47,744 bases of DNA from Desulfobotulus mexicanus. GTDB lineage: Bacteria; Desulfobacterota; Desulfobacteria; Desulfobacterales; ASO4-4. Below the pieces are notes generated by a model that worked only from the letters and a program-made list of their open reading frames with translations, was not told the origin of the DNA and made no database searches. Within the stretch, counting starts at the first letter, position 1. The number at the start of each line of letters is the position of its first letter. Shown one piece after another: positions 2,963 through 33,392 of this stretch. The position numbers and the translations under genes are program-made. Location: the NCBI RefSeq assembly GCF_006175995.1, contig NZ_VDMB01000017.1:602-48345 (forward strand). Reading direction: 5' to 3'.

Positions 2963-2987
2963 TTTTGGTTAAAAATAATGTAAAATA

Positions 2988-3035
2988 GAAAACCCCCGGA
3001 CTGGCAGAAGAGCCTGTTCGGGGGTTTTCTTTTTC
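2988..3035. terminator. Bidirectional intrinsic terminator between ilvC and the 84-aa gene
   Basis: A perfect 11-bp stem (2988-2998 with 3019-3029, GAAAACCCCCG and its complement) encloses a 20-base loop. It is followed by T-rich sequence on the plus strand and also on the minus strand. It separates the convergent ilvC and the small gene at 3052-3306, and could stop transcription from both sides. Confidence 0.88.
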
Positions 3036-24336: not shown

Positions 24337-26357
24337 CAGGCAAAACTTCCATTGGTTTCATCGGGTGCTGGCAAAAGGATTTCTCTGGGTCTGGCACCAT
24401 CTGCAGGCCCCAGAATTCCTTCCTTTTCCATGGTTTCTATGATTCTTGCCGCACGGTTGTAACCGATGCGCAGATGACGCTGCACCGCAGAAATGGAGGC
24501 CTGCCGGGTACGGAGAACCAGATCCACGGCTTCATCGTAGCGATCATCATATTCGGTTTCTTCGGTGTCGGGAGCTTCTTTATGATCCGATTCTGTTATG
24601 TCCTGAATATATTCAGGTTCCCCCTGGGATTTGATGAAGTCCGTGATGCGGGTCAGTTCCTCTTCCGTGACAAAGGCTCCGTGGATGCGCTGGATGCGGG
24701 AGGTGCCGGGTGGTACATAAAGCATGTCTCCATTACCCAGAAGGCTTTCTGCTCCCATGCTGTCAATGATGGTTCTGGAGTCAATCTTCGAAGACACCTG
24801 AAAAGAGATGCGTGTGGGAAAATTGGCCTTGATAACACCGGTGAGAACATCCACTGAAGGTCTCTGGGTGGCAAGGATGAGGTGGATGCCCGCAGCCCTT
24901 GCCATCTGGGCCAGTCTGGCCAGGGCCACTTCCACATCCCTGGAGGCTACCATCATGAGATCCGCAAGCTCGTCAATTATAATAACGATAAAGGGCAGGG
25001 GTGCATCCAGACCTGTTTCCCGCATTTTTTTATTGTAACCTGTAATGTTGCGGGTTTTGTGATCCGCCAGCAGTCCGTAACGCCTCTCCATTTCCCGAAC
25101 GGCCCAGTACAGGGCATTGGTGGCAAGTTTCATATCTGTGACCACAGGGGAGATGAGATGGGGGATGTCATTGTAAAAGGAAAGCTCAATGCGTTTGGGA
25201 TCAATCATCAGCAGTTTTACTTCATCGGGCCTTGCCTTGTAAAGGAGGCTTGTGATCATGCTGTTGAGTCCCACACTTTTTCCCGTTCCCGTGGCACCTG
25301 CAATTAGGATATGGGGCATGTGATCCATTGGTGCGACAACGGGTCGGCCTTCAATATCTTTTCCAAGGCAGAGGGTCAGGCGGGATGGGTGCTGCATGAA
25401 GGAGGGAGACTCAATCACTTCCCGCAGTCTTACCATTTCCCTGTCCTGATTGGGAATTTCTATGCCGATGACGTCCTTTCCCGGGATGGGGGCAACAATG
25501 CGTATGCTCAAAGCTGAGAGGGCAAGTGCCAGATCATCGGAAAGGTTGACAATCTTACTGATTTTAATACCGGGTGCAGGGCGGTACTCAAAGGTTGTGA
25601 TTACAGGCCCCGGAACAATGCGCACCACCTCACCACGGATACCGAAATCGCCCAGTTTTTTTTCAAGTATTTCTGATTTCATTTCCAGGGCAGCCCTGTC
25701 CTGAGTTGGAGGAGAAGGGTCCCTTGGTGTCAAAAAATCAGGTGAGGGCATTTCCCAGGAACTGTGCTGATACCTTTTCTTTTCCAGAGGAATGGTGGTA
25801 GGGGCTTGAGCCTTGTTTTCCGGTAAAGAAGATGCTGGCCGGATTTTTTTCTCCTGTCTTTCAGGGACAGATGCCTTGTCTTTTATGGTATCAGGGGCTT
25901 GTTCTGCCGGTTTTGGGTCAGAATGGGCCGGGCTGGCAGGGGGGGGCTGCTCAGGTGTCTTTTCCGGAGCTGGTGTTTTGGGTGGAGCTGATGCGGCTTC
26001 CGTAAGCGGATGCTCTGTTTTGTCCGTTAAAACAATTTCAGGGCCTGTTTTACCCGTTGCGGAATTCAGACGGGTCAGCATGTCATGGAAACGGCTGTAT
26101 GCGGAATCATTAAGGGTCCGGTCTTTTTTTTGCAAGTTGATCAGTTTTCCTGCCAGATTCAGGGCGGCAGTGAGCAGCAGTTTTTCATTGCCTACGGTAC
26201 TCTGGATTGGAGAAAAGTCCCTTTGTACATGGGCCAGTTCTGTTTTTAGAATGGCCAGCACGGATTCGGGGTTAGTCACATCGGATGAGGCGCAGATTTT
26301 ATGCGGTGTTCCGAAAATATCTATGGTTATTATTTTTTCTGATTCTGCCTGTGACAT
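24336..26357 (-). CDS. ftsK: FtsK/SpoIIIE DNA translocase with N-terminal ZapA-like domain and no membrane domain
   Basis: This is a 673-aa dsDNA pump. The motor has FtsK alpha and beta regions from about 225, Walker A GATGTGKS with K360, Walker [11 protein letters not shown] at 458-467, and ATQRP at 496-500. A winged-helix gamma domain (about 605-665; [20 protein letters not shown]) reads orientation sequences in related proteins. The usual four-helix N-terminal membrane domain is absent. Residues about 8-95 instead resemble Zap[16 protein letters not shown], a helix, then [20 protein letters not shown] and a coiled coil. A Pro/Ala/Lys-rich linker (about 105-215) follows. ZapA binds FtsZ, so this motor may reach the division ring through that domain. 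GGAG precedes the ATG. Confidence 0.93.
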
Positions 26358-26453
26358 GGATACTCCGTGTGTGTCAAAAAAATGGTAAGCGTCAGGTATT
26401 TTTTATTCTTAAATCCATGAGCTTTAATTTCAGCTGCTTAGTTCAGCCCTAAG

Positions 26454-26521
26454 GTATCCCGGCTGTTTGTGAGTGACATTGCAATCGTTTCGGATTGCGT
26501 CACGGTCAACAACCGGGATAC
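26454..26521. repeat. Structured palindromic repeat, copy 1
   Basis: The outer stem GTATCCCGG (26454-26462) pairs exactly with CCGGGATAC (26513-26521). Inside is a core of 21 nt (26473-26493, GTGACATTGCAATCGTTTCG plus G) and 12 nt (ATTGCGTCACGG, 26494-26505) that itself folds as GTGAC..GCAATC/GATTGC..GTCAC. The same 21-nt and 12-nt blocks occur reversed at 33260-33280 and 33228-33239. It lies between the DUF4388 gene and ftsK. Confidence 0.8.
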
Positions 26522-26558
26522 ATGTCTGACTGACAGATGTGGCCCTTAGCAAACGAAA

Positions 26559-28751
26559 TCATGGCCTGATGGCAAAGGCATGGCCGCAGGTTTCGGGCCC
26601 ATGGCTCTGCCTTTGAAAAACACTTTCATCCCTTGCTGTGACTACCCGGACTTCATTGGTATAGCCCCGGCTGAAAAGTTCCGAACTCCAGTACCAGCGG
26701 TTGGGGTCTGGAAGCGGGTAAGCCGGAGGATTTTTAAATATCTGGGCCAGCTCACTTTCTCTGGGCAGCCGCCAGTCCCTGTGACCACCTAGATTAAGGT
26801 TTTGTACAAAGGTTCTGGCTTCATGGAAATTAAGGCATTGGCCCGTATGGGCTTCTGAATCCGTCAGCATCCATATTTTTCCTGTCTGCCTGTCCTGTAC
26901 CGTGCCATTGTTGAGATTTATAAAGCGCTGCTGTACTCCTGCAAGCCGCCGGTTCATCTCCCTTGTGGCATTTTCAAGTCTGGCTCTGGCCTCTGCGGCC
27001 CTTGCCCTTTCTTCCGCCTGCTGACGTTGCAGGGCCAGTGCCGCCTGACGCCTTCTTTCTTCAAGGGACTCCTGCTCACGCCTTGTTCTTTCTCTAATAA
27101 TCTGGTCCCGCAGGGCCTGGGCCTGACTCCGGTAATGTTCCGGCGGGGACTCGGTGAGGTAACGGTCGAGGAGCGAGATGCGGGTCATTTCATTGAGGCC
27201 TGGGCGCTTTAGATCGGACTGCAGACTTTCCCACATCCTGTCTTCTGCTGTTTTCTGTTCCAGAAACCCTATACGCTGGCGGATAAAGGTTAAAATTTGT
27301 GGATCATTTTCTTCCCGCCTTGTTCTTTCAAAAAAACGCAGCCTTTCTTCATTGCTGTTCAGCCTGTCTGCGGAAGCCTGAAGATCCTCAATGCGCTGCT
27401 GCCGGAGAAGATTGTTCAGATGGATACGGGCCCTTTCCATACCTGCGTGTTCAGGGAAATCTTCCATATATTCACGGGCTGCGACCATGGCACGGGATCG
27501 TGTTTCTCTATTCTTGCCGGAAAGTCCGAGAATAAATGCCAGTCGTTGGTCTCCCCTTTCTTCTATGCTTTTTTCAAGAACTGCCATGCCGGGGTTTTCC
27601 GGAAAACGCTGCTGAAAGTCCCTTGCCCTCTGCAGCCAGTTTCTTTCGGCAATGTTTTCTTCTGTCATGGCAGCCATATCCTTTGCCATGGCAAGGATGC
27701 GATCCTCTCGCAGGGTTTTTACCGTATCTGCCCTTGGACCGTCAGGATGGCGTATGAGAAAACGCTCATAGAGCCTTAAGCCCTTTTCAAAGTCTTCGGG
27801 ACTGGAAGAGAGCTGTTTTTCTTCGTTCATCAGCTCAAGGTAGTCCCTCTCCAGTATGCTTTGCCGGAGCTGACCCCTTGCGTGGGTAATTTCCTGGGCA
27901 TGGGGGCTGTCCGGAAAGGCATCGAGAAAGCGGTTGAAAAGAACTTCCTGCTGTTCTGGCAGTTCCATGCGCAACAGGGATTCCTGTAATTCTGTGTAGG
28001 CCGTATTGTGCTGATATCTGGCATAGCCAAAGTAGGAAGCAGCAGCAGCGATAATAATAAATCCCATTGTTGTGAAGGTAAGAATCAGAAGCCGTTTCCT
28101 GCTGAATCTGGGGGCTGGCTTCGGATCTTCGGTTTTTTCTGCATGGGAAGAGCTGGGAGGTCTTTCGGACTGTTTTCCGGCCGACTGCATGGCCTGTATC
28201 CGGATGGGCTGCATTGATGCTTCTGGAGAAATGTTTTGGGTAAAATCCGTATTGGTAGCCTGACGCAGTTCATCGTCAGAAAATTCATAGGCACTAAGTG
28301 CGGCCAGCTCGTCATCTTCATCGTCATCAAAAACGCTTCCGCTGTCCTGATGGAAAGGCCTTGTCGGTTCCGGAGTTTCTTCAATTTCAAGCTCTGGGAT
28401 TTCATCTTCTTCGTCTTCTTCATCACCGATGTTCTGGAGCTTTTCATCCTGAAGCCTTGCCCCTTCCATCAGAAGGTGCATCATGGGCACACGGATTTTT
28501 CTTTCAGTGGCAGCACAATCCCTTTGCATATGAATGACAGGATCTTTGAGGCAGAGAATTTCATAGGCCGCATCCAGTGCTGGCAGATCCCTGTAACTGG
28601 CATCAATGACCTCACCATCCCGGATATGGATTTCTCCCTGGGATTTTTTACCCTTCACCGTGAGTGTGCAGGTGGTTTTTTCCATCTGTACCATCTGGAG
28701 GAAAGCAGGAAGGCTGAAGCCCTGAATTTTTCCGCCTGGAGATAAGCTCAT
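26559..28751 (-). CDS. DUF4388 / transmembrane / coiled repeat / DUF1566 protein
   Basis: This 730-aa protein has four parts. Residues 1-100 are a DUF4388 (PATAN-like) domain: SLPAFLQMVQMEKTTCTLTV, GEIHIRDGEVIDA. A Glu/Asp-rich linker follows. A single membrane helix near 220-250 reads LLILTFTTMGFIIIAAAASYF. A long, helical, Arg/Glu-rich periplasmic region with TPR-like spacing runs to about 610. A DUF1566 (Lcl-type) domain ends the protein: GTVQDRQTGKIWM, GGHRDWRLPRESEL, WYWSSELF. It probably senses or organises across the inner membrane, with a cytoplasmic protein-interaction domain. It sits between parC and ftsK on the same strand. Its function is unknown. Confidence 0.82.
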   Translation of the reverse strand: MSLSPGGKIQGFSLPAFLQMVQMEKTTCTLTVKGKKSQGEIHIRDGEVIDASYRDLPALDAAYEILCLKDPVIHMQRDCAATERKIRVPMMHLLMEGARLQDEKLQNIGDEEDEEDEIPELEIEETPEPTRPFHQDSGSVFDDDEDDELAALSAYEFSDDELRQATNTDFTQNISPEASMQPIRIQAMQSAGKQSERPPSSSHAEKTEDPKPAPRFSRKRLLILTFTTMGFIIIAAAASYFGYARYQHNTAYTELQESLLRMELPEQQEVLFNRFLDAFPDSPHAQEITHARGQLRQSILERDYLELMNEEKQLSSSPEDFEKGLRLYERFLIRHPDGPRADTVKTLREDRILAMAKDMAAMTEENIAERNWLQRARDFQQRFPENPGMAVLEKSIEERGDQRLAFILGLSGKNRETRSRAMVAAREYMEDFPEHAGMERARIHLNNLLRQQRIEDLQASADRLNSNEERLRFFERTRREENDPQILTFIRQRIGFLEQKTAEDRMWESLQSDLKRPGLNEMTRISLLDRYLTESPPEHYRSQAQALRDQIIRERTRREQESLEERRRQAALALQRQQAEERARAAEARARLENATREMNRRLAGVQQRFINLNNGTVQDRQTGKIWMLTDSEAHTGQCLNFHEARTFVQNLNLGGHRDWRLPRESELAQIFKNPPAYPLPDPNRWYWSSELFSRGYTNEVRVVTARDESVFQRQSHGPETCGHAFAIRP

Positions 28752-33022: not shown

Positions 33023-33165
33023 GAAAATCCCGATACCTCATTGTTGAAACTTTGGGGCAGCAGAGAAGTGCTTCTCCTGCTGCCGGAAACAAAGTTTTAT
33101 ATATACCTCAGATTCATCCGGAACGAAAACCGTCTTTTTATGGAAAATAAAAAAGGAGGTAACAG

Positions 33166-33361
33166 TTCAGCACAGTTTTCCAAGTACCATACCTGCAAGA
33201 CAGATGCACAGGCCCCAGGCTATTTGCCCGTGACGCAATTTTATTCTTAGAGCTTCTTGCCGAAACGATTGCAATGTCACTTGCAAATAGCCACAGAGCC
33301 TTGTGCCAGTACGAAGCTGCTGTAATTACAGCATTGGCAGTTCAGAATAAACTGTGCTGAA
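33166..33361. repeat. Structured palindromic repeat, copy 2, MITE-like
   Basis: This 196-bp imperfect palindrome is bounded by 13-bp terminal inverted repeats: TTCAGCACAGTTT (33166-33178) and AAACTGTGCTGAA (33349-33361). Inside, a 10-bp perfect stem GGCTATTTGC/GCAAATAGCC (33218-33227 with 33283-33292) encloses the core shared with copy 1. The core blocks are 12 nt (33228-33239) and 21 nt (33260-33280), in reverse orientation and separated here by 20 extra bases. A 16-nt perfect palindrome lies at 33318-33333. No ORF is present. It fills most of the gap between the IclR gene and parE. Confidence 0.8.
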
Positions 33362-33392
33362 TAATAACAAAAGGAGGAGGCAAAGGGAAAAG

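Follow-up and report, generated by a model that had tools for sequence, protein, structure and literature searches.

NEMIS/Correia, RUP, ERIC and the enterobacterial RU are small mobile intergenic elements, and some of them fold as RNA. To our knowledge each is limited to a genus or family, and small mobile repeats in general are usually thought to be lineage-bound and to have interiors that are filler. Miniature inverted-repeat transposable elements (MITEs) are given as generally under 300 bp in a passage of PMC3189936. Here we describe a repeat from a 47,744-nucleotide stretch of the Desulfobotulus mexicanus genome (assembly GCF_006175995.1, contig NZ_VDMB01000017.1, positions 602 to 48,345 of the forward strand), the whole of which is referred to as the window. 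An earlier note on this DNA had drawn attention to two copies of a structured repeat that have an exact 21-mer and an exact 12-mer in common, inside outer stems that are unrelated in sequence yet paired, and had read them as shape kept around a fixed core, in the manner of repetitive extragenic palindromes and bacterial interspersed mosaic elements (REP/BIME), mobile hairpins or attachment sites. We consider it likely that both sites are shortened copies of one MITE family, built around a hairpin core and moved in trans.

The mobile unit and its copies

A position check confirmed that both blocks are common to the two window copies: the 21-mer GTGACATTGCAATCGTTTCGG lies at 26473-26493 (plus strand) and 33260-33280 (minus strand), and the 12-mer ATTGCGTCACGG at 26494-26505 (plus) and 33228-33239 (minus). 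When up to two mismatches were allowed, the 21-mer was found at 118 places in the genome of D. mexicanus (G000; 3.83 Mb in 69 contigs) and its reversed-pattern control at none; assembly of a single site in duplicate could account for a few of the 118, at contig ends. The recurrence is not chance, and the repeat is not confined to the pair in the window. Two congeners contain 230 places (G001) and 19 places (G002), and 37 other genomes of the order contain none.

The limits of the mobile unit were determined from 101 distinct copies (up to three mismatches), drawn from the loci around 100 of the 118 places plus the window. Terminal repeats, GTAAYTRTTCAGCAC on the left and its complement on the right, could be placed at both ends in 69 of these. 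Directly outside the ends, an exact direct repeat of length 8 is present in 17 of the 69, and each other length from 3 to 12 in 0 to 2. An 8-bp duplication matching at 7 or more of its 8 positions occurs in 38 of the 69 copies, against 0/69 in six shifted controls, and likewise in 28/47 copies of G001 and 6/10 of G002. Full copies cluster at 345-354 bp, with further groups that are shorter (179-195 bp) and longer (411-420 bp), and an element of 345 bp has no space for a transposase gene. The repeat is a non-autonomous transposon, a MITE, and its transposition is well shown.

The boxes drawn in the earlier note span only the base of each hairpin, and the mobile units are larger:

26385..26572, plus strand: copy 1, an old MITE copy; left end GTAAGCGTCAGG, right end near 26572 uncertain
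26454..26521, plus strand: hairpin base of copy 1; stem GTATCCCGG/CCGGGATAC, 21-mer and 12-mer, with the hairpin top missing
33151..33158, no strand: target duplication AAAAGGAG, left of copy 2
33159..33368, minus strand: copy 2, a 210-bp MITE copy with both terminal repeats and an 8/8 target duplication
33218..33292, minus strand: hairpin base of copy 2; stem GGCTATTTGC/GCAAATAGCC, 21-mer and 12-mer, with a remnant of the hairpin top between the blocks
33369..33376, no strand: target duplication AAAAGGAG, right of copy 2

Copy 1 starts near 26385 (GTAAGCGTC) and lies between two minus-strand genes, ftsK, which starts at 26357, and the next one, which ends at 26559; copy 2 lies between gyrB and a gene for an IclR-type regulator. 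Covariance-model matches cover 26453-26523 at copy 1 (44.1 bits) and 33209-33300 at copy 2 (76.4 bits). Weak matches elsewhere in the window, at 27601-27659 (11.3 bits) and 2984-3034 (10.2 bits), are probably due to chance. On contig C5 of G000 (L312, approximately 1700-1834), two terminal repeats stand about 120 bp from each other with no core, a still smaller form. Four loci (L028, L037, L148 and L198) have well-kept cores and GGYRYACAGGCC-type stems with no recognisable ends; at these loci the ends may have decayed, or the core may be able to occur without the shell.

The hairpin and the loss of its top

The 348-nt consensus of 27 full-length copies folds as one hairpin (-174.5 kcal/mol), in which variable outer arms surround an asymmetric core with fixed loops and with stems that change on both sides. 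In an alignment of 60 of the 106 distinct inner hairpins, 97.7% of the cells are standard pairs and 13 pairs have changed on both sides, compared to 8.0 (sd 1.5) after shuffling; none of 500 shuffles reached 13. The outer helix is 96.6% paired in the 60 copies and contributes 9 of these 13 pairs, out of its own 20. Thus, different but paired outer stems are general to the family, the outer arms of further copies are not unpaired, and the earlier claim that shape is kept around a fixed core extends well beyond the two copies on which it was based. Of the loop motifs, CTGTYTGAG has an exact match in 90 of the genus's 106 inner copies, NGAGTT in 95 and CGAGTT in 20.

Both window copies are deletion derivatives that lack the hairpin top, so that what was noticed earlier as a core makes up just the base of a longer, conserved hairpin. 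The site of copy 1 upstream of ftsK is also occupied in G001, by a longer form in which 255 nt, versus 32 in copy 1, lie between the two core blocks, and CGGAT stands at both ends of the stretch that copy 1 is missing. In the gyrB-IclR interval of G001, copy 2 is absent and the site is empty. Both flanks could be matched in the G001 stretches compared for 23 sites out of 100 copies; 8 are shared with G001, 13 have no core there (with flanks 20 bases apart or less at 5 of the 13) and 2 are unclear. One other deletion junction, common to five copies, falls at a GCCTGTGC repeat pair seen in the full consensus. Direct repeats at the junctions fit slippage deletion across a long palindrome, and palindrome-driven deletion is in this case seen between sister species.

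Other variants of the element were encountered in the same comparison. A form whose left arm has lost 37 bp between CAGCA repeats is found at one G000 site (L152) and five G001 sites (including L256, L277, L280 and L286), which suggests that deletion forms may themselves spread. The G001 element upstream of ftsK (L210) adjoins a further insert, roughly 140 bp long and bounded by AACCCAAGTTCG/CGAACTTGGG, that the window copy lacks and that looks like a second small element. In some copies (L023, L029 and the G001 ortholog of copy 1, L210 and L263), a 65-nt inverted-repeat piece, TCCGGCACTCAAG...CTTGAGTGCCGGA, occupies two or three fixed places of the hairpin, and convincing examples are nearly all inside the element. 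A separately mobile inner module inserted at the fixed core had been a candidate cause of the missing tops. Away from the core lie 17 of 28 matches to TCCGGCACTCAAG (up to two mismatches) in a G000 sample and 21 of 79 in a G001 sample, and these resemble background with one hairpin-like exception; this and the direct repeats at the deletion junctions weaken the idea.

The hairpin core outside the genus

We searched 116 genomes of the order with R1, a covariance model of the inner hairpin, scoring no more than 19 candidates per genome; the E-values are rough. Nine genomes were matched, six of them outside the genus, with at least 15 places in G079, at least 7 in G094, at least 2 in G111 and at least 1 each in G067, G108 and G086. 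In different stems, the matches have unpaired motifs in common: the apex carries CTGTYTGAG and CGAGTT and the base a stretch resembling GCGARYGACATTG, with variation of single letters in some copies. A compact-apex DNA pattern was found at 26 places in 9 of 395 genomes of the phylum (reversed control, 0); it has no match in the genus of the window, where the apex is longer. A looser apex pattern gave 28 places in 13 of 50 genomes sampled from an FtsK search, versus 6 in the control. Twenty-two of the 28 loci were inspected by eye: 15 lie in long stems, in two Variovorax, Dechloromonas denitrificans, Castellaniella, Clostridium magnum and a Desulfurivibrionaceae genome, and the other 7, single matches in 7 genomes without a long stem, were taken as chance.

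The search patterns fix the apex letters, and therefore constancy of the apex is not in itself evidence; the R1 copies were likewise found by a model that rewards those letters. The stem beside the loops is in no search pattern, and it is 79.8% paired over 7 positions versus 48.0% after shuffling (maximum 59.9% in 1000 shuffles). In an alignment of 36 distinct apex sequences from 17 genomes, assembled from 40 chosen loci, 85.8% of the cells pair versus 62.2% shuffled, and the covariation score is 0.552 versus 0.167, neither being reached in 500 shuffles. When the partners are slid by one column, pairing falls to 47-50%. In the register used, pairing is poor in eight rows (three from G367, four from Dechloromonas and one from G060). 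The data show that the same core, identifiable by its loops and not by its stems, is present in other families of the order, and that its apex module is present in other phyla.

The elements that surround the core in other lineages were examined for target duplications as well. In G079 the ends are GTAACTATTCAG-like, and among 10 rows delimited by script, exact 8-bp duplications flank L342 and L344, with 7/8 at L346; the right end set by the script is wrong in several rows, and by eye L348 and L349 also have exact 8-bp duplications. A second type, G094/f24, has wholly different ends and an 8-bp duplication at 7/8 or better in 12 of 19 copies (4 exact), for a boundary that is the best of 256 offsets and has neighbouring offsets nearly as good; no duplications were seen at lengths 5-7 or 9-12. 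The core is thus shown to lie inside 8-bp-duplicating elements in at least two other lineages, one of them with different ends. The same core with different ends and the same 8-bp stagger is the basis for a reading in which shells are swapped. We put forward tentatively, as a possibility short of an expectation, that these repeats belong to a widespread, undescribed class of mobile hairpins in which the fold is the inherited unit: the asymmetric loops (the CTGTYTGAG/CGAGTT apex and the TGACATTG-type base) would be retained from phylum to phylum as the stems, the terminal repeats and perhaps also the transposase are exchanged. The hairpin would be recognised in single-stranded form by a conserved host factor, and it would be carried in whichever 8-bp-duplicating shell is active in a given lineage.

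One strict apex pattern had no match in viral contigs, the apex patterns had none in 1.35 Mb of FtsK-neighbour loci, and the full element had none in plasmid records. A Variovorax segment was found in 13 plasmid records with no annotation under the best places, several of which match no more than a second hairpin-like piece about 50 bases long. At L395, L398 and L407 (Variovorax and Dechloromonas), the apex hairpin occurs as inverted pairs approximately 240-270 bp apart and is followed by a second hairpin of type CTTTCTTTGGCGAAGCAAAGAAAG. Many of the apex loops labelled A3 are GNA or GNNA, as in GCGAAGC, which we take to be a very stable DNA mini-hairpin.

Transposition, alternatives and known systems

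We infer both the transposase and the role of the hairpin. A DDE transposase, perhaps of the IS66 type, would move the element in trans; the element would require the fold in order to multiply, probably in the form of a single strand (RNA or extruded single-stranded DNA) that is recognised at its loops; and, after insertion, slippage across the palindrome would delete the hairpin top and yield the two short window copies. Ends of the IS66 family follow a GTAA-start pattern. Members of this family make 8-bp duplications, according to a passage of PMC3281130. The IS66 assignment is a guess from the ends and the stagger. The IS66 transposase domain PF03050 is present once in G001, in an element with ends GTAACTTCTCAATAAG. 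In a search for an autonomous parent between distant end pairs, a candidate on contig C26 of G001 proved to be two MITEs.

Several observations weigh against this account as a whole. PF03050 is absent from G000 and G002, the single IS66-type element of G001 has only GTAACT in common with the MITE ends and no target duplication was seen at it, and the search of the three congeners, in which a 4.6-kb interval on contig C30 was not searched for proteins, turned up no autonomous parent. One or both ends are missing from 32 of the 101 copies. Once inserted, the inner part diverges between G000 and G001 by 3.6% (24/675), only slightly more slowly than the arms, and is not strongly kept in place. Beyond the genus, the E-values of the R1 model are rough and its matches come from the best 19 candidates per genome, and two of the five measures of the cross-lineage alignment are weak, with 13 pairs changed on both sides versus 11.4 shuffled (4/500) and 32 further pair types versus 30.9 (190/500).

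The slow divergence of the inner part among paralogs raises the question of gene conversion between copies, by which the inner part would stay alike through exchange and not through need. In the 27 full copies, paralogs differ by 22-26% in the outer arms, 15% in the terminal repeats and 6.6% in the inner part, a figure lowered by inclusion of the 21-mer with which copies were found. Orthologs at the 8 shared sites differ little between parts (5.3%, 36/680, and 5.9%, 26/437, in the two arms, with 8.8%, 487/5523, in the flanks), and one locus, L168, combines a shell of a common kind with an inner variant whose other occurrences are in different shells. The inner part therefore drifts nearly like its surroundings once inserted, yet is alike family-wide, which suggests either a need during spread or exchange between copies, two causes that the data do not tell apart. 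Conversion within one genome cannot, however, account for loops that recur in other families and phyla, and in the full-copy consensus conservation is lower at the centre of the hairpin than beside it; we regard conversion as rather unlikely.

It could also be that the hairpin is chiefly an RNA element of use to the host, such as an mRNA end, an RNase III site or an insulator, that rides in a MITE. Asymmetric fixed loops with covarying stems would suit this role, as would the many sites between genes. No strand preference emerges from crude gene calling over 400 kb of G000 and approximately 788 kb of G001, with 11 sense and 16 antisense tandem sites, 15 convergent and 9 divergent, and 28 of 83 sites lie inside open frames of at least 100 codons (including frames that run through the element), with 4 at stretch edges. 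Moreover, copies at shared sites decay and lose their tops, and no Rfam family was matched: in the window Rfam gave only tRNAs, in 10 loci of other lineages nothing, and in 6 loci 3 sub-threshold matches. A chiefly host-serving hairpin is in our judgment quite unlikely, and we favor, with modest confidence, a fold that serves multiplication of the element itself over one that acts in host mRNA.

Mutation alone might also leave arms paired but different. Template switching, a known mutational mechanism for imperfect palindromes, matches the arms of a palindrome without any selection for shape, and the outer arms are in fact the fastest-changing part. The same process should nonetheless erase mismatched loops, whereas CTGTYTGAG, present on one arm, is kept exact in most genus copies and recurs in other phyla, so that we see little prospect for this explanation. 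An integron attC-type site is unlikely because of the target duplications. Finally, it is very improbable that this is a REP/BIME-type repeat that a REP-associated tyrosine transposase (RAYT, Y1) mobilises in single-stranded form: the high copy number, the intergenic hairpins with internal bulges and the Y1 genes of all three congeners (5, 2 and 1 matches, 8 in total) recall such repeats, but terminal inverted repeats and 8-bp duplications are unlike the IS200/IS605 elements in the part of PMC2817692 that describes them, and neither core nor terminal repeat was found in the 3 of 8 Y1 loci read. Of the earlier suggestions, then, the mobile hairpin in many copies holds and the REP/BIME affinity is set aside; a Y1 transposase is encoded, as had been asked, with no link to the repeat at those loci.

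A description of this element was not found in searches of an open-access library, nor was a paper containing two or more of the apex strings together, and the hairpin model can be used to annotate intergenic repeats that are at present unlabelled. With REP/BIME and REPIN repeats served by RAYT, the element has in common abundant intergenic palindromes in which changes are kept complementary; it differs in its ends, its size, its target duplication and the lack of a linked Y1 gene at the loci read. It resembles IS66-family elements in the 8-bp duplication and in ends that begin with GTAA, as at copy 1; in contrast, it has no transposase, and no IS66 element with the same ends was found in the three congeners. 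It is like MITEs in its terminal inverted repeats, its target duplication, the lack of a transposase gene and its many intergenic copies, although this element is about 345 bp long, its whole body is one hairpin and its core recurs far beyond the genus. In comparison to NEMIS/Correia, RUP, ERIC and RU, which are not known beyond a genus or family, the apex module is present in several phyla. It is the interior of this element that is old: stems and ends turn over, but the unpaired bases recur in Desulfobacterota, Betaproteobacteria and Clostridium. This makes it testable what sustains such repeats, be it a host factor, a role as RNA or a need in transposition.
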